From Rhodocaloribacter litoris (GTDB lineage: Bacteria > Bacteroidota > Rhodothermia > Rhodothermales > ISCAR-4553), in the NCBI RefSeq assembly GCF_011682235.2, contig NZ_CP076718.1, positions 679,758-743,757 on the forward strand: a DNA stretch of 64,000 bases, given 5' to 3'. Both the position numbers and the translations under genes were made by a program. Positions 52,594 through 64,000 of the stretch are shown here, piece after piece (positions within the stretch are counted from its first letter, which is position 1; every line of letters starts with the position of its first letter). Below the pieces are notes generated by a model. It was not told the origin of the DNA, searched no databases, and worked only from the letters and a program-made list of their open reading frames with translations.

Positions 52594-53754
52594 ATGGCCG
52601 GCATCTACCTGCACATTCCCTTTTGCACCCAGCGCTGTTCCTATTGCGACTTCTATTTCGTCACCACGCAGAAGTCGCACACGTCGTTCGTCGAGGCGTT
52701 GCGGATGGAACTGGAGCACTATGCCCTCGAATACGGGCGGCGTGAACCCATCGAAACCATCTACTTCGGCGGCGGCACCCCGTCGCTGCTCCATCTCGAC
52801 GAGCTGGCCCGTATCCTCGACACCATCCATACCCACTACGACACCGCCTCCGTCTCGGAGGTGACCGTCGAGATCAACCCCGAAGACGTCGACCTCGACT
52901 ACCTGCGCGGCCTCCGCGACCTCGGCGTCGACCGGCTCAGCATCGGCATCCAGTCCTTCTTCGACGCCGACCTGGCCTTCATGAACCGTTGCCACGACGC
53001 CGCACGGGCCGAAGCGGTCATTCCCCTCGCCCGCCGGGCCGGCTTCGACAACTTCTCCGTGGACCTCATCTTCGGCCTGCCGGACCAGCCGCCCGAGTAC
53101 TGGGCCGCCAACCTGGAAAAGGTCGTCCGCTACGAGGTACCCCACCTCTCGACCTACCTGCTCACGGTCGAAGAACGCACCCCGCTCTTCAAGCAGGTGG
53201 AACGCGGGCTGGTGAAGCTGCCCGAAGACGAAGACGTGGCCGACCTTTACCGGTTCACCATCCGTTACCTGCAGGAGCACGGATACGAACACTACGAGAT
53301 CTCGAGCTTTGCCCGGCCCGGACGGCGGGCCCGTCACAACCAGCTTTACTGGACGCACCAGAACTACCTCGGCTTCGGCCCCTCGGCCCACTCGTTCTGG
53401 TGGAAGGGCCTGCCCGCCACGCGATGGGCCAACGTCCGCAACCTCCGCCGGTACGAGGCCCTCGTGCGGCAGCGATACGCCCCCATCGACTTCAGGGAGC
53501 AACTCGACCTCGACACCCTGGCCAACGAATACATCATGCTCCGCCTCCGCACGGCCGACGGCCTCGACCTCGACCACCTGGAGGCCCGCTACGGCGTCGA
53601 GTTGCTCGTCGAAAAGGTGGACGAGCTGGCCTGGCTGGAACGGCAGGGCTACATTGCCCCCATCCGCAACAGCCGCGTGCGCCTGACCGAACTGGGCAAG
53701 ACGCTCTGCGACACCGTCACCGAGTACCTGATGATCGATCCGATCAAGACTTGA
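52594..53754 (+). CDS. hemW: Radical SAM family haem chaperone
   Basis: 386 residues. The radical-SAM motif CTQRCSYCDF at about 11-20 and YFGGGTPSLL are followed by EINPEDV, IGIQSFFDADL, SVDLIFGLP and the C-terminal HemW domain with a conserved NYLGFGPSAHSF. The usual HemN-specific N-terminal extension is absent, so HemW fits better than coproporphyrinogen dehydrogenase. Its stop overlaps the DUF192 start. Confidence 0.93.
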   Translation: MAGIYLHIPFCTQRCSYCDFYFVTTQKSHTSFVEALRMELEHYALEYGRREPIETIYFGGGTPSLLHLDELARILDTIHTHYDTASVSEVTVEINPEDVDLDYLRGLRDLGVDRLSIGIQSFFDADLAFMNRCHDAARAEAVIPLARRAGFDNFSVDLIFGLPDQPPEYWAANLEKVVRYEVPHLSTYLLTVEERTPLFKQVERGLVKLPEDEDVADLYRFTIRYLQEHGYEHYEISSFARPGRRARHNQLYWTHQNYLGFGPSAHSFWWKGLPATRWANVRNLRRYEALVRQRYAPIDFREQLDLDTLANEYIMLRLRTADGLDLDHLEARYGVELLVEKVDELAWLERQGYIAPIRNSRVRLTELGKTLCDTVTEYLMIDPIKT

Positions 53755-54242
53755 TGCCTCGACTGCGTCCCCCCTGCCGCTGTATCCTCCTCGTCCTGTG
53801 CCTCCTGCCCGGCCTCGCGGCCTGTCGCGACGAACCGCCGCCCCCGCGCGAGATCCCCTTCCGCGTCGACGGCTCCCTCGATTTCCTGCGGCCGGACAGC
53901 ACCCTCATCACCCGCATCGCCATCGAAATCGCCGCGACCGACTCGGCCCGGGCCCGCGGCCTGATGGAACGCCGCTCCCTCCCGCAACGCGGCGGCATGC
54001 TCTTCGTCTACGACCACGACAGCACCCGCACCTTCTGGATGCGCAACACCCCCCTCCCGCTCGACATCCTCTTCATCGGCGCCGACGGCCGCATCGTCAA
54101 CATCGCCAGGCGTACCCGGCCGTACTCCGACGACCTGATCCGCTCCCGGGGCCCCGCCCGCCACGTGCTCGAAGTGCGGGCCGGCTTCACCGACCTCCTC
54201 GGCATCGACACCACCACGTTCGTCCGCTGGCGCCGGCGATGA
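53754..54242 (+). CDS. DUF192 lipoprotein, first of two tandem paralogs
   Basis: 162 residues. The ATG shares its A with the hemW stop, so translation is coupled. Lipobox LAAC (Cys about 22) precedes a DUF192 domain (about 45-160) with ARARGLMERRSLPQRGGMLFVY, FWMRNTPLPLDILFIG and VLEVRAGF. DUF192 proteins are small, probably periplasmic or surface-exposed beta-barrels of unknown function. Confidence 0.88.
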   Translation: MPRLRPPCRCILLVLCLLPGLAACRDEPPPPREIPFRVDGSLDFLRPDSTLITRIAIEIAATDSARARGLMERRSLPQRGGMLFVYDHDSTRTFWMRNTPLPLDILFIGADGRIVNIARRTRPYSDDLIRSRGPARHVLEVRAGFTDLLGIDTTTFVRWRRR

Positions 54243-54281
54243 CCCCCACCGCACGCTCCCGCCAACCGAAACCGATCCGCG

Positions 54282-54803
54282 ATGAACAAGCCGACACCCG
54301 AACCCCGAAACCCGGCCCGGTTGCTGCTCTGTTCCCTGGCCTTCCTGCTCTTCGGCCTGGCCGCCTGCGGCGACGGCTCCGGCTCGTCCCCCGCCCCGGC
54401 CACCCCCGACATCCCCTTCCGCAAGGACGGCACGCTCACCTTCCTCCGCGACGGGGAGCCCGTCGTCACCATCGACATCGAGATTGCCGACACCGACTCG
54501 GCACGCACGCGCGGGCTGATGCAACGCACCGGCCTGCCCGAACGCAGCGGCATGCTGTTCATCTTCCCGCAGGCCGAGCCGCAGAGCTTCTGGATGGCCA
54601 ACACCCCGCTCTCGCTCGACATCCTCTTCGTCGGGCCCGACTCGCAGATCGTGAGCATCAGCAAGTACACCACCCCCCTTTCCCCCGAGAACATCACCTC
54701 TGAGGGGCTGCCGGCCCGGTTCGTGATCGAGGTGGAAGCGGGTTTCGTGGACACCTACGGCATCGTCGAGACCGACCGGGTGCGCTGGGAAGACCTGCGT
54801 TGA
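54282..54803 (+). CDS. DUF192 lipoprotein, second of two tandem paralogs
   Basis: 173 residues. It has lipobox LAAC (Cys about 29) and the same DUF192 marks ([51 protein letters not shown]), clearly paralogous to the gene 39 bp upstream. It is convergent with the lysine transaminase gene. Function unknown. Confidence 0.88.
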
Positions 54804-58440: not shown

Positions 58441-60282
58441 ATGAAGCACCGCAAAGCGCTTTCGAAACCCTTTCTCGCCGTATCCTTTCTGCTGCTGTGC
58501 GTGTTCGTGTTCGTGTGGGACGGAGCCCAGGCCGCCGGCTCGTCCATGCCCCTGCTGCAGGACGCCGGCGGTTACCGCCCCTTCCCCATCGAGGGCATCA
58601 GCAGCCGGGTGGCCATGTGGGTGGTGGCCGAGCTGCACCTGATGTTCGCCGCCTTCGTGCTGGCCGTGCCGCTGTTCGCCCTGATCATCGAATTCATCGG
58701 CTACAAGACGGGCGACCGGCGCTACGACGAGCTGGCCTACGAGTTCACGAAGCTCCTGTCGGTTTCTTTCTCCTTCACCGCCACCCTGGGAGCGCTGCTC
58801 ACCTTCGGGCTGATCGTCCTCTACCCGAAGCTGACCGAATACCTGATGTCGATCTTCAGCTGGACGTTCTTCCCGTACGTCCTGCTGTTTTTCCTGGAGG
58901 CCATCTTCCTCTACAGCTACTACTACGGCTGGGGAAAGATGAACCCGAAGGTGCACCTGCTCCTGGGGGTGCTGCTCAACCTGACGGGCACGGCCATCAT
59001 GTTCATCGCCGACGCGTGGCTGACGTTCATGAACACGCCGGCCGGCATCGACGAGGCGGGCAACCTGGTCAGCCTCTGGGGCGCCATCAACAACTACACC
59101 TGGATGCCGATCAACATCCACCGGCTGATCGCGAACGTGGCCTTCGGCGGGTCGATCGCGGCGGCCTATGGCGCCTACAAGTTCCTCGGTGCCCGGACCG
59201 AGGCTGAGAAAGCCCACTACGACTGGATGGGGTACGTGGGCAACTTCATCGCCATCAGCGCGCTGTTGCCGCTGCCGTTTGCCGGGTACTGGCTCGGCCG
59301 CGAGATCTACGCCTTCTCGCAGACGCTGGGCATCACGCTCATGGGCGGCACCTTCTCCTGGTTGTTCATCATCCAGGCGGTGCTCATCGGCAACCTGTTC
59401 CTGGCCGCCAACTACTACCTGTGGCTGGGGATGGAACGCATCCCGGGCTCGGAGCGCTACCGGAAGTTCATCAAGTACCTGCTGGCCTCCATCACCGCCT
59501 GCTTCATCGTATGGGCCACCCCGCACTCGCTCGTGGCCACCGTCGAGGAGGCGCGGCAGATGGGGGGAGCCCACCACCCGGTCCTCGGTGTGCTCGGGGT
59601 GATGTCCGCCAAGAACACCGCCGTCAACATCCTGATCCTGACCACCTTCATCAGCTTCCTGCTCTACCGGCGCAGCAACAAGGAGGCCACCGTCTCCTGG
59701 GCGAAGGCCGGCAAGACGGCCCAGTTCGCCATCTTCGCCGTCGTCGTGGGTATCGTCGTCTTCCTGGGGGTCTACGGCTACTTCGTCGAGGCGACGGTGC
59801 GCATCGGGCTGTCCGTGCCACAGGTGCTCTCGGTGCTCTTCGCCATGGTCTCGGTCACGATCATCGACATCTTCCTGTTCAGGGATGCGAAGATCACCGG
59901 GCCGATCCAGTGGGGCAAGATGCCCAACCGGGCCCAGTACGCCCTTTTCTTCATCGCCATCACCTTCGCCTGGACGATGGGGTTGATGGGATACGTCCGC
60001 GCCGGCATGCGGCAACACTGGCACGTCTACGGCGTCCTGGAAGATACCTCGCCCGACGCCTTCACCCCGACGCTCGGCTTCGCCTCCAACGTCATCTCGG
60101 TGACGGTGCTGATTTTCTTCACCTTCATCGCCATCGTCTTCTGGATCACCGGGCTTTCGGGGCGCAAGGCATGGGTCGCCCGGCCGGACGTGCCTCCGGA
60201 AGACGAAACCGCCCAGGCGCTGCCCGGTGATGGGGACGCCCAACCTGCGAAACAACCGGCCTGGGAGGGGGCTGCGTCGTGA
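58441..60282 (+). CDS. Divergent CydA-like (cytochrome bd superfamily) membrane subunit
   Basis: 613 residues with a signal-like first helix and about thirteen more helices. The first half aligns with CydA: H66 in AELHLMF corresponds to the high-spin haem ligand, E153 in LFFLEAIF to E107, and H227 in PINIHRLIANVAFGG to H186. The E99 position is not acidic, no GRQPW quinol-loop motif is present, and a Met393 equivalent is not obvious. The second half adds helices beyond usual CydA length. No CydB gene is adjacent; three c-type cytochrome genes follow. I infer a non-canonical bd-family reductase that takes electrons from cytochrome c or is part of a larger complex. The 3' end overlaps the next start. 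Confidence 0.85.
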   Translation: MKHRKALSKPFLAVSFLLLCVFVFVWDGAQAAGSSMPLLQDAGGYRPFPIEGISSRVAMWVVAELHLMFAAFVLAVPLFALIIEFIGYKTGDRRYDELAYEFTKLLSVSFSFTATLGALLTFGLIVLYPKLTEYLMSIFSWTFFPYVLLFFLEAIFLYSYYYGWGKMNPKVHLLLGVLLNLTGTAIMFIADAWLTFMNTPAGIDEAGNLVSLWGAINNYTWMPINIHRLIANVAFGGSIAAAYGAYKFLGARTEAEKAHYDWMGYVGNFIAISALLPLPFAGYWLGREIYAFSQTLGITLMGGTFSWLFIIQAVLIGNLFLAANYYLWLGMERIPGSERYRKFIKYLLASITACFIVWATPHSLVATVEEARQMGGAHHPVLGVLGVMSAKNTAVNILILTTFISFLLYRRSNKEATVSWAKAGKTAQFAIFAVVVGIVVFLGVYGYFVEATVRIGLSVPQVLSVLFAMVSVTIIDIFLFRDAKITGPIQWGKMPNRAQYALFFIAITFAWTMGLMGYVRAGMRQHWHVYGVLEDTSPDAFTPTLGFASNVISVTVLIFFTFIAIVFWITGLSGRKAWVARPDVPPEDETAQALPGDGDAQPAKQPAWEGAAS

Positions 60283-61091
60283 AAACCGCGTTGAAGATTT
60301 TCGCTTTCACCATCCTCGTCTCGGCCTTCTACAGCTACGTCGGCCAGTGGGTGCCCCAGAAGGAGACGTACCCGCCGGAGACCGTTGAGCTCAGTGCCGA
60401 CATGACGACCGAAGAGCTGGTGGCCGCCGGCCAGGAGATCGTAGCCGGCAAAGGTACCTGCCTGGGCTGCCACACGATCGGGCAGGAAGGCGGCGCGCTG
60501 CGCTTCCCGGACCTGGGCAACATCGGCGCCGTCGCCGGCACCCGGCGCGAAGGCTATTCGGACGTCGAGTACCTGGCCGAGTCGCTCTATGAGCCGAACG
60601 TCTTCATCGTCGAGGGTTTCAACCCGGGCATGCCTGCCGTGCACCGCCCGCCCATCGGCCTGACGGACCAGGAGATCCTGGCGGTCATCGCCTACCTGCA
60701 GTCGCTCGGCGGCACGCCCACGGTGACGCTGGCGACGGAGCTGCGCTGGCAGGGCCAGGCCCCGGCCACCCCGGCCGCCCCGGCAACACCGTCCCCGGGC
60801 GGCGCGGAGGCGATGGACGGCCCGGCCCTGGTGCAGGCCTACCTGTGTAACACCTGCCACAGCTTCGACGCCCCCACCCCCGGCGCGGGCCCGAGCCTCT
60901 ACGACGTGGGCCGCCGCCTCTCGAAGGCCGAGATCTACGAAGCCATCATGGAGCCGGATGCCGTCGTGGCCGAAGGGTACGCCCCCGGCGTCATGGGCGC
61001 CACCCTCAACGCCACGGGCTTCTACGACAGGATCACCAGCGCCCAGCTGAAAACCCTGGTCGACTACCTGGCCTCGCTGCAAGGCGGGTGA
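60279..61091 (+). CDS. Membrane-anchored dihaem cytochrome c
   Basis: 270 residues starting with GTG, overlapping the CydA-like stop by four bases. One N-terminal helix (about 5-22) anchors two class I cytochrome c domains: CLGCH at about 61 with a distal Met in GFNPGMPA, and CNTCH at about 190 with Met in GVMGATL. A Pro/Ala linker (about 160-175) separates them. It probably relays electrons to or from the CydA-like subunit. Confidence 0.92.
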   Translation: MKTALKIFAFTILVSAFYSYVGQWVPQKETYPPETVELSADMTTEELVAAGQEIVAGKGTCLGCHTIGQEGGALRFPDLGNIGAVAGTRREGYSDVEYLAESLYEPNVFIVEGFNPGMPAVHRPPIGLTDQEILAVIAYLQSLGGTPTVTLATELRWQGQAPATPAAPATPSPGGAEAMDGPALVQAYLCNTCHSFDAPTPGAGPSLYDVGRRLSKAEIYEAIMEPDAVVAEGYAPGVMGATLNATGFYDRITSAQLKTLVDYLASLQGG

Positions 61092-61172
61092 CCCCGGCGC
61101 GCGCGGGAGCGTGCCCCCTGCCGCCGGCTCCGCGCCCAAGCGTTCAACCTCCGACCTCACCCCCACGCCGCC

Positions 61173-61991
61173 ATGAACCTCCTCGTCTTCGCCGCCGTCC
61201 TCGCCGCGATGCTGGCCGTGCGGTTCTTCTTGAAGAACCTGCACATCCTGGTGTGGCTCGCGCTGTGGTGGGTGGCGCTGTTCGTCGTCTTCAAGTACGG
61301 GATCGAACCGCCGCTGCCGGCCTCCATCGTCAACATGTTCATGGCCATCGTCACGCTGGCGTTGCTGGCCTATCTCTCGGCCACCACCTCCTACTTGCGG
61401 CAGGCCACCGAGGCGGTCGTACGGTTCATGGTGGACCGGCGGTTCACGGTGCCGCTCGTCGTGGTCCTCCTCACCGTGCCGGCGCTGGTCGCCTGGCAGG
61501 TCTACGCCGAGCGTACGGCCCGCCCCACCCCTCCCGTCTCGGGCCGGACGATCCACCCGCCCCCGCCCAACACCATCTCGTTCAAGGGCAAAACCATCGA
61601 CCTGGTCAACGGCGAGAACCCCTACCGGGCACTCGAGACCTCGGACCCCGAAGCCTTTGCCGCCCACGTGGAGAACGGGCGCCGCATCTACTACGAGAAC
61701 TGCGTCTTCTGCCACGGCGACAACATGGAGGGCGACGGCCTCTTCGCCCACGGCTACGACCCCCTGCCGGCCAACTTCAACGACCCGACCACCATTGCCA
61801 TGCTCCAGGAGACCTACCTCTTCTGGCGCATCGCCAAGGGCGGACCGGGCCTCCCCTCGGAATCCACCCCCTGGGCCTCGGCCATGCCGGCCTGGGAAAA
61901 CTTCCTCACCGAGGAGGAGATCTGGGACGTGATCCTGTTCCTGTACGACTACACCGGCTTCCGCCCCCGCGCCCGGGAGGAGATTCACTGA
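61173..61991 (+). CDS. Membrane protein with C-terminal monohaem cytochrome c domain
   Basis: 272 residues. Three or four hydrophobic helices (about 1-20, 23-42, 47-68, 90-110) precede a periplasmic cytochrome c domain with CVFCH at about 177 and a Met ligand candidate in SAMPAWENFL. The domain starts after a Pro-rich linker. It is part of the bd-like cluster, starting 81 bp after the dihaem gene. The membrane part has no recognised family. Confidence 0.88.
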   Translation: MNLLVFAAVLAAMLAVRFFLKNLHILVWLALWWVALFVVFKYGIEPPLPASIVNMFMAIVTLALLAYLSATTSYLRQATEAVVRFMVDRRFTVPLVVVLLTVPALVAWQVYAERTARPTPPVSGRTIHPPPPNTISFKGKTIDLVNGENPYRALETSDPEAFAAHVENGRRIYYENCVFCHGDNMEGDGLFAHGYDPLPANFNDPTTIAMLQETYLFWRIAKGGPGLPSESTPWASAMPAWENFLTEEEIWDVILFLYDYTGFRPRAREEIH

Positions 61992-62051
61992 GACGAGAGG
62001 AGGGGGAACCACGGGGTGCGAAAAAAACGACACGCATCGAACGGAGGGACC

Positions 62052-63629
62052 ATGCGACACGACGCCAGCCCACAGCGTTGCTGCGGCCGCCCACCGGCGT
62101 GTAGACGCCGGGCCGCGTTGCTCCTGGCGGCCCTGGTGGTGCTGCCCACCGGCCTGCTCGCGCAGGAACCCGACCTGGGCACGGAAGCCCAGCGGGCAGC
62201 CGGGCGCCAGGTCTACCTGGAGAAATGCGCGCAGTGCCACGGAGAAAACGGAGACGGGCAGAGCTACGCCACCCCCTTCCTGCGTCCCGCCCCGCGCGAC
62301 TTCACCGCCGGCATCTTCAAGTTCCGCACCACCCCCAGCGGCGAACTCCCCACGACGGACGACCTCCGGCGCAGCATCCGCGAAGGCATGCCCTACACCA
62401 GCATGCCGGCCTGGCGCGGCGTCCTCTCCAGCACCGAGATCACCAACCTGGCCTACTTCATCAAAACCTTCAACGACGACTTCACCGGCCCCTACGGCGT
62501 CCCCACCGTCGTCGAGATCCCCCGCGACCCCGGCTTCGACGAAGACAACCTCGAACGTGGACGGCAGGTCTACGAGGAAAACCAGTGCGCCGACTGCCAC
62601 GGCAACCAGGGACGCGGCAACGGCCCCTCGGCACCCACCCTGGAAGACCAGTGGGGCTTTCACATCCGCCCCGCCGACCTGACCAAACGCTGGACCTTCC
62701 GCAACGGACAGACCCGCCGGGACATCTACCGCACCTTCACCACCGGCCTCGACGGCTCCCCCATGCCGTCGTACGACATGCCCGAAGAAGACCGCTGGGC
62801 CCTCGTCGACTACGTATGGTCGCTCTCCCGGAGCGAGCCGAACTACGCCACGGCAGCTTATTCCCACGCCGTCGAAGGCCCGCTCGACCTGAGCCGGGGC
62901 CCCGCCCTTTTCGAGGAAGCCGAGCCGGCCTACTTCCCCGTCGTCGGCCAGGTCATCGAGCCGGGACGCTCCTTCTACCCCGGCGTCAACGGCATCGAGC
63001 TGCGGGCCGTGCACAACGCCGACGAGATCGCCTTCCTGGTCACCTGGCATGACCTCCGGGCCGACACCCGGGGACGCAACGGCCCCGACCTCCCGGCGCC
63101 GATGAACGAACCCGCCCGGCCCGACACCGCCACCACCTTCTCGGACGCCGTCGCCCTCCAGTTCCCCGCCACGCTCCCCACCGGCGTCGAGCGCCCCTAT
63201 TTCCTCTTCGGCGACCGGAAGAACGCCGTCGACCTGTGGTTCGTCGACCTCGCCGAGGGAACGGGACGCCGGTATATCGGGCGCGGCTACCGGGACCTCC
63301 AGCCCGCCTCCGACGGCCCCCCGATCGAGGTCCGCACCGCCTACGACGACGGGGCCTGGCAGGTCCTCTTCAAACGCGCCCGCCTCGCCGGGGAGGGCCT
63401 CTCCTTCCCCGAAGACACGTTCGTCCCCATCGCCTTCTCCGTATGGGACGGGTTCAACCAGGAACGCGGCAACAAGCGCGGCATCACCTCCTGGTATGCC
63501 GTCTACATCGCCCCGCTGGAACAACCCGCCGCGCTCGGCCCCGCCCTCGGCTACGGCCTCGCCACCCTGCTGCTGGGACTGGCCCTCGTCGGCTACACCC
63601 GCCGGAAATACCGGACGGCGACGGCGTGA
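62052..63629 (+). CDS. Dihaem cytochrome c fused to ethylbenzene-dehydrogenase-like haem-binding domain
   Basis: 525 residues. ATG 62052 is preceded by GGAGGGACC, fixing the start. After a signal peptide (about 20-40), two cytochrome c domains carry CAQCH (about 61) and CADCH (about 180), with Met in YTSMPAWRG and SPMPSYDMP. Residues about 290-490 fit the EB_dh/DMSO-reductase-gamma-like beta-sandwich that binds haem b (ELRAVHNADEIAFLVTWHD). A C-terminal helix (about 497-515, then RRK) anchors it. It closes the respiratory cluster; the three-gene set holds five CXXCH motifs. Confidence 0.9.
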   Translation: MRHDASPQRCCGRPPACRRRAALLLAALVVLPTGLLAQEPDLGTEAQRAAGRQVYLEKCAQCHGENGDGQSYATPFLRPAPRDFTAGIFKFRTTPSGELPTTDDLRRSIREGMPYTSMPAWRGVLSSTEITNLAYFIKTFNDDFTGPYGVPTVVEIPRDPGFDEDNLERGRQVYEENQCADCHGNQGRGNGPSAPTLEDQWGFHIRPADLTKRWTFRNGQTRRDIYRTFTTGLDGSPMPSYDMPEEDRWALVDYVWSLSRSEPNYATAAYSHAVEGPLDLSRGPALFEEAEPAYFPVVGQVIEPGRSFYPGVNGIELRAVHNADEIAFLVTWHDLRADTRGRNGPDLPAPMNEPARPDTATTFSDAVALQFPATLPTGVERPYFLFGDRKNAVDLWFVDLAEGTGRRYIGRGYRDLQPASDGPPIEVRTAYDDGAWQVLFKRARLAGEGLSFPEDTFVPIAFSVWDGFNQERGNKRGITSWYAVYIAPLEQPAALGPALGYGLATLLLGLALVGYTRRKYRTATA

Positions 63630-63886
63630 GACCGAAGGCGCTTGATGAATGGTGAACGGAGAATGATGAACAGGACATGACCGACCATGAACGGCAAGCA
63701 CAAACTTTATAGGAAAGGGGAAGGTACGGAGGGGGCTGTAAAACCCCTGACTTCAGTCGGCGGGATAAGGCGATGGTACATCGCCCTTGGACCCCCTCCG
63801 TTTCCTGTGAGGGCGTTCTCCACCGTCTGTAGACGGCGGCACGACTGAACAGGAACCTTACGCACATAATAGGGGTGCGTGTAACT
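63630..63886 (+). mobile_element. Left-end region of an IS200/IS605-type element
   Basis: This leader before tnpB holds short hairpins: GACT/AGTC at about 63749-63758 and CCGTCT/AGACGG at 63823-63836. Subterminal hairpins of this sort are expected for IS200/IS605 ends. The exact element boundary cannot be set, and no tnpA is seen upstream. Confidence 0.45.
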
Positions 63887-64000
63887 ATGCCCGAGGTGAT
63901 ACGAACATATCGTTACCGAGCCTACCCGAACGCTGAGCAGAGGGAGAACCTTGCTCGCACGTTCGGGTGTGCCCGATGGGTGTACAACTGGGGTCTGGAG
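63887..64000 (+). CDS. tnpB: TnpB RNA-guided nuclease/transposase accessory (5' part; continues beyond window)
   Basis: 38 residues from ATG 63887 run to the right edge. TYRYRAYPNAEQRENLARTF followed by GCARWVYNWGLE is the N-terminal helix-turn-helix of OrfB/TnpB. The RuvC and zinc-finger parts would lie beyond the window, so intactness is unknown. Confidence 0.85.
   Translation, partial: MPEVIRTYRYRAYPNAEQRENLARTFGCARWVYNWGLE

Follow-up and report, generated by a model that had tools for sequence, protein, structure and literature searches.

The window analysed here, a 64,000-nucleotide stretch of the Rhodocaloribacter litoris genome (contig NZ_CP076718.1, positions 679,758 to 743,757), encodes a CydA-like protein of the cytochrome bd superfamily, followed on the same strand by three cytochrome c genes that we designate cytA, cytB and cytC. 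We propose, with a probability of roughly 0.6, that the four products assemble into a single membrane complex, a bd-like terminal reductase of OR-N type that would be fed by a cytochrome c or a cupredoxin and served by a dedicated haem-maturation module. A sequence-only reading of the window had suggested a bd-type reductase linked to cytochrome c and separate from the quinol oxidisers. This suggestion is now supported by placement of the protein with OR-N, loss of quinol-site residues, the lack of a second CydB in the genome and fusions between subunits. The type of oxidase cassette is already known from nitrite oxidisers, and, as far as the literature covered shows, its link with genes for PCP_red and radical-SAM proteins is undescribed.

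The first gene of the cassette (58441..60282, +) codes for the CydA-like, OR-N-type haem subunit of 613 amino acids with 13-14 predicted membrane helices, an assignment based on a PF01654 match, an AlphaFold model, Foldseek, ligand alignment and a tree. It is followed by cytA (60279..61091, +), a dihaem cytochrome c (PF00034 in two stretches, E = 5.1e-19; CXXCH at residues 61 and 190) whose hydrophobic N-terminus suggests a membrane anchor. Four membrane helices predicted from hydropathy are combined with a monohaem cytochrome c domain in cytB (61173..61991, +; PF13442, E = 3.1e-10; CXXCH at residue 177). The product of cytC (62052..63629, +) consists of a dihaem cytochrome c part, an EB_dh domain resembling NxrC and the gamma subunit of ethylbenzene dehydrogenase, and a C-terminal membrane helix (PF13442, PF00034 and PF09459). 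Its open reading frame (ORF) runs from a GTG at 62016 (62016-63629, +), but the ATG at 62052 is probably the true start. A GTGA overlap at the first junction and five CXXCH motifs had been noted previously, and both were confirmed: the GTG start of cytA at 60279 overlaps the stop of the CydA-like gene by four bases, and the motifs number two in cytA, one in cytB and two in cytC. The genome is a single contig of 4.5 Mb, with nearest relatives that are mostly metagenome-assembled genomes (MAGs) of Rhodothermales. Its sole match to PF02322 (CydB) adjoins a canonical CydA (C1:2,336,975-2,339,271), 1.6 Mb from the cassette, and no CydB was found near the cassette; the arrangement first described, a CydA-like protein lacking CydB and in line with three cytochrome c genes, therefore stands.

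Among 80 related loci, drawn from Rhodothermales, Acidobacteriota, Myxococcota, NC10, Rokubacteria, Nitrospirota and others, nearly all contain the cassette (cytA in 78, cytB in 74 and cytC in 76), so that the gene pattern is not a product of chance, and the four-base overlap of the CydA-like gene with cytA is found in 41 of these loci. The CydA-like protein of Scalindua (L074) carries cytA fused to its end, and NC10/Rokubacteria loci (L059, L066, L076 and L084) have a cytB+cytC fusion. Judging from the conserved cassette and these fusions, the CydA-like protein, cytA, cytB and cytC very probably form one complex. In a Myxococcota MAG, a second, divergent whole cassette (L045:1403-6750, -; 42% identity) lies head-to-head with the first.

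Homology of the CydA-like subunit to CydA spans residues ~55-300, and the PF01654 match (E = 2.1e-26) is confined to residues 55-289 of 613. When a profile of 45 relatives was compared with the PDB, its only matches were to canonical CydA chains and covered the N-terminal part (5DOQ scored best, E = 2.8e-18), and profile-profile comparison with 17 canonical CydA sequences gave 99.3% probability over residues 50-296. The AlphaFold model (pLDDT 86.5, pTM 0.86) had CydA chains throughout as its top Foldseek matches (probability 1.00). In the multiple alignment with E. coli CydA, H66, H172, H227 and E153 correspond to H19, H126, H186 and E107, which agrees with the original observation that the CydA-type His and Glu positions are kept, and the active-site His and Glu positions are conserved in 49 relatives. 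E99 is replaced by Y146, as had been seen at the outset in the lack of an E99 equivalent, K252 by L296 and E257 by M301. The sequence-only reading had also reported that GRQPW was missing. The literal motif is indeed absent, but the segment has a counterpart, RQHWH (residues 524-528), which aligns with GRQPW at an hhalign probability of 85-90%, with Pro changed to His and with Arg524 common to canonical CydA and the CydA-like subunit. The presence of this counterpart near the C-terminus indicates that GRQPW was remodelled and not simply deleted. R520 and H528 are invariant in 49 OR-N-type sequences, and E445 is replaced by Ala/Ser. A counterpart of M393 was sought by aligning the entire C-terminal half with CydA, which gave no reliable alignment; the invariant M388 is a candidate only. 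An extra CXXCH occurs upstream of the core in some CydA-like ORFs (L024:7482-9638, L028:7482-9641, L015:3553-5700 and L050:7074-9620). In L024 it lies within a cytochrome-c-like N-terminal stretch, and the ORF start is uncertain in some of the other three.

In a tree of 72 sequences and 254 core columns, the window protein fell in a long-branched clade with the Nitrospira-type bd-like proteins (L161-L169; ultrafast bootstrap 98), and a branch of 1.54 separated its clade from canonical CydA. The Nitrospira-type references were identified by their gene neighbours and not from the original OR-N sequence set; bd-like proteins of Nitrospira and Nitrospinota have been assigned to OR-N (PMC12342949, PMC10839748). 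Two protein pairs, L175 and L176, branch at the base of the clade. Since their neighbours encode iron-sulfur and NrfD-like proteins, we take these pairs as OR-N5, the group found directly downstream of alternative complex III (PMC12342949); the names OR-N1, OR-N2 and OR-N5 are used as in PMC10839748 and PMC12342949. Thus, in a phylogeny of the kind proposed earlier as a check, here covering canonical CydA and OR-N-type sequences, the protein groups with OR-N and outside canonical CydA, and neither of the findings named as contrary to a bd-type reductase of this kind, placement within quinol-oxidising CydA or a cydB elsewhere shown to pair with the protein, was seen. On its residues and placement, the CydA-like protein is not a quinol oxidase.

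In PMC10839748, reduction of O2 with cytochrome c as donor is proposed for OR-N, not shown, and a pair of CydA-like subunits (CydAA') is a hypothesis for OR-N1/N2 only and does not extend to the whole family. The R. litoris genome has one OR-N-type gene and a canonical CydA. Most genomes checked likewise contain a single CydA-like gene of OR-N type besides any canonical ones, and because this is their only non-canonical CydA-like gene, they have no CydA' partner. Canonical CydA is wholly absent from the genomes of many relatives.

The proposed maturation module lies outside the window at L004:2031-7359 (window-equivalent 65273-70601). Encoded there are a radical-SAM/SPASM protein that ends in a PCP_red domain, a tandem USP protein carrying three such domains, a P-loop ATPase of the Mrp type and a small PCP_red protein. 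An IS605-type TnpB gene (window 63875-64000, on to L004:1805) separates the cassette from the PCP_red/radical-SAM genes here; the two are contiguous in many relatives. The USP-PCP_red gene is found on 55 of the 80 loci, before or after the cassette and once on the opposite strand (L034). Within the phylum of R. litoris, 7 of 297 genomes contain the oxidase, and exactly the same 7 contain the full-length USP-PCP_red protein. Among 247 Acidobacteriota genomes, 25 have the oxidase; the USP-PCP_red protein occurs in 24 of these and in 0 of the 222 others, and in the lone exception the oxidase is no more than a fragment at the end of a contig. In Nitrospirota, the protein is present in 20 of 61 genomes, 19 of which have an OR-N-type gene (one a fragment), and every genome with an OR-N-type gene has the protein. 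The two genes are often far apart or on separate contigs in this phylum, so shared position does not explain their co-occurrence. Fisher p-values for the three phyla (2.7e-14, 1.9e-32 and 6.7e-15, respectively) ignore kinship and are descriptive. For canonical CydA in the same Nitrospirota genomes, no association with the USP-PCP_red protein was seen (Fisher p = 1.0). The radical-SAM orthologue (E < 1e-85) is restricted in Acidobacteriota to oxidase genomes (21 of 25), and its distribution there closely tracks that of the USP-PCP_red protein. Searches for viral relatives of the USP-PCP_red protein found none. In loci of Acidobacteriota and others, the USP-PCP_red gene has a GNAT-type acetyltransferase gene beside it (L047:14826-15665, L034:13829-14719 and L046:15255-16172).

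PCP_red is known from protochlorophyllide reductase, an enzyme that makes a chlorin, where it forms the C-terminal part of BchB; the haem d of canonical bd oxidases is also a chlorin. This analogy is suggestive but falls short of proof. The nearest models of the radical-SAM/SPASM protein are NirJ2 and AhbD, with scores under the curated cut-offs. HemH was found in 16 of 17 oxidase genomes tested, including that of R. litoris, and ordinary haem b therefore does not depend on the radical-SAM enzyme; a role as the haem-b synthase (AhbD) of the genome is unlikely for the same reason, with HemH present here and in 15 of the other 16. We tentatively suggest that the OR-N bd-like oxidases contain a tetrapyrrole with a special modification, and that the radical-SAM/PCP_red, USP-PCP_red, Mrp-type ATPase and small PCP_red gene products make or insert it. 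If so, it would represent a haem type, or a route of haem maturation, not known for any oxygen reductase. We found no published link of PCP_red to a bd or Nitrospira context, which is a weak sign of novelty as the literature covered did not include the main superfamily paper. It is also possible, if somewhat short of probable, that the co-occurring genes form a module for regulation or stress that goes with the same lifestyle, which would leave the oxidase in place and remove the maturation step. USP domains are common in stress regulation, and both sequence and fold matches of the USP-PCP_red protein are to tandem USP proteins. Against such a module are the near one-to-one presence and absence with the oxidase in three phyla and the lack of any with canonical bd, the 58% mean column identity across phyla, and the gene run itself, which also encodes a P-loop ATPase and a NirJ2/AhbD-like radical-SAM protein that has a PCP_red tail.

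The dihaem part of cytC matches the solved cytochrome 6h5l_B (E = 2.7e-48), which we take to be from Kuenenia, and the EB_dh part (PF09459, E = 6.5e-13) matches 2ivf_C and subunit C of nitrite oxidoreductase (NXR), 7b04_C. Met and Lys form the haem-b ligand pair in ethylbenzene dehydrogenase. In cytC, Phe398 occupies the position of the Met ligand and Lys487 is kept; 57 of 81 relatives have F or Y at position 398. In alignment A3, the row L166:4312-5397 is a cytochrome b and was disregarded. Since the Met ligand is replaced, the EB_dh domain may not bind haem b. Of the EB_dh haem domain noted in the sequence-only reading, the domain itself was thus recovered, and its haem b became uncertain. 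No full-length match to TIGR03479 was found in this genome (G000), the best being partial at 103.7 bits, and no full type II dimethyl sulfoxide (DMSO) reductase or NXR was detected in this genome, G238, G286 or G010. Accordingly, a role of the cassette as an NXR anchor was rejected for this genome. A small cytochrome c encoded at L004:16466-16999 (-) has 60% identity over 95 residues to part of cytA (by eye, its second haem domain) and is probably a duplicated or exchanged subunit domain.

The donor, acceptor, electron path and haem chemistry that we infer for the complex are as follows. A periplasmic carrier, either a soluble cytochrome c or the nearby cupredoxin, would donate electrons at cytC, and these would pass through cytB to cytA, by way of five c haems in all; O2 would then be reduced at the haem core of the CydA-like subunit. 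The proton route would no longer run via E99. CydB would not be needed; the four-helix cytB and the CydA-like subunit, through its long C-terminal half, may stand in for it. The companion proteins (PCP_red radical-SAM, USP-PCP_red, Mrp-type ATPase and small PCP_red) would be required to modify or insert one haem. The cupredoxin-like lipoprotein (L004:9732-10514) contains the motifs HNIH and CDVHPWM and has homologues in 15 loci. It lies downstream of the cassette along with a cluster for a CtaD-type haem-copper cytochrome c oxidase (together L004:9732-15000), and the same cluster is found directly upstream of the cassette in L006, L009, L011 and L026.

Several points weigh against this proposal. 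Our literature search found no demonstrated activity of any OR-N member, O2 reduction being assumed from homology, and the family has members in anammox bacteria (Scalindua L074), which would not be expected to respire O2. Haem ligands in the C-terminal half are guesses because the alignment is not confident beyond the RQHWH region. The PCP_red domain has only 45 residues, tetrapyrrole binding by the companion proteins is putative, and the co-occurrence statistics disregard the relatedness of the genomes.

The anammox members would also fit a complex that exchanges electrons between the quinone pool and c cytochromes of the periplasm, acting as a form of alternative complex III and lacking a terminal acceptor itself. 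Such transfer has been proposed for homologous Nitrospina/Nitrospira clusters (PMC3578206, PMC6606698), and the haem-copper oxidase adjoining the cassette in several loci could be the real terminal oxidase. We nevertheless consider this unlikely: the known quinol-site residues are replaced, the active-site His and Glu are kept in 49 relatives, and the cassette occurs in this and other genomes that lack NXR. More improbable still is that the complex reduces or detoxifies nitric oxide (NO), peroxide or another small molecule and does not respire O2. Canonical bd oxidases handle NO and peroxide, and anaerobic anammox lineages have the cassette, but among the genes next to it no conserved one related to NO or peroxide was seen, and its neighbours are respiratory (haem-copper oxidase, cupredoxin). 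The CydA fold recovered by Foldseek would suit an ordinary quinol-oxidising CydA that pairs with a CydB encoded elsewhere, yet this is very hard to maintain when the sole CydB adjoins, and was judged to belong to, its own canonical CydA, many relatives have no canonical CydA, the quinol-site residues are lost and the protein falls outside canonical CydA in the tree.

In nitrite-oxidising bacteria, the main terminal oxidases are believed to be of the OR-N type. The cassette is nevertheless present in bacteria without recognisable NXR, which shows that the complex does not depend on nitrite oxidation. The companion genes make the cofactor question testable, and their near one-to-one occurrence with the oxidase makes them concrete candidates for any maturation step that expression in another host would require. 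Elsewhere in the window, at 53649-54803, small lipoprotein-like sequences that resemble each other are encoded by two adjoining plus-strand ORFs (52989-54242, at its end, and 54282-54803), an apparent tandem duplication.

Among known systems, the co-occurring module shares domains with the C-terminal PCP_red of BchB and with the radical-SAM proteins NirJ2/AhbD; its scores are under the curated cut-offs, and its PCP_red domains are on USP and radical-SAM proteins and not on a nitrogenase-like reductase. The EB_dh domain of cytC resembles NXR subunit C and the gamma subunit of ethylbenzene dehydrogenase (7B04, 2IVF), but it is fused behind a dihaem c domain, has lost the Met ligand and has no type II molybdenum partner that we could find. 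With canonical CydAB (5DOQ, 6RKO) the system shares the N-terminal core, counterparts of H19, H186 and E107, and the fold, whereas CydB is missing, E99, K252, E257, E445 and M393 are not at the aligned positions and GRQPW is changed to RQHWH. A closer likeness in gene content is seen with the bd-like_3/alt_NxrC_2 cluster of N. moscoviensis, which has Nitrospina and anammox counterparts (PMC6606698, PMC3578206). The two have in common a bd-like oxidase, two membrane c cytochromes and an NxrC-like protein of ~60 kDa with two haem motifs and one membrane helix; they differ in that no type II DMSO reductase was found in the R. litoris genome, the haem-b Met of EB_dh is changed to Phe and tetrapyrrole-handling genes lie next door. 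OR-N of Nitrospira/Nitrospina agrees in tree grouping, the same conserved residues, the lack of CydB and of the quinol site, and c-type cytochrome neighbours. Unlike OR-N as described there, the cassette has a single CydA-like subunit with no CydAA' partner in most genomes, and it is present in Rhodothermales-like and many other bacteria without NXR.

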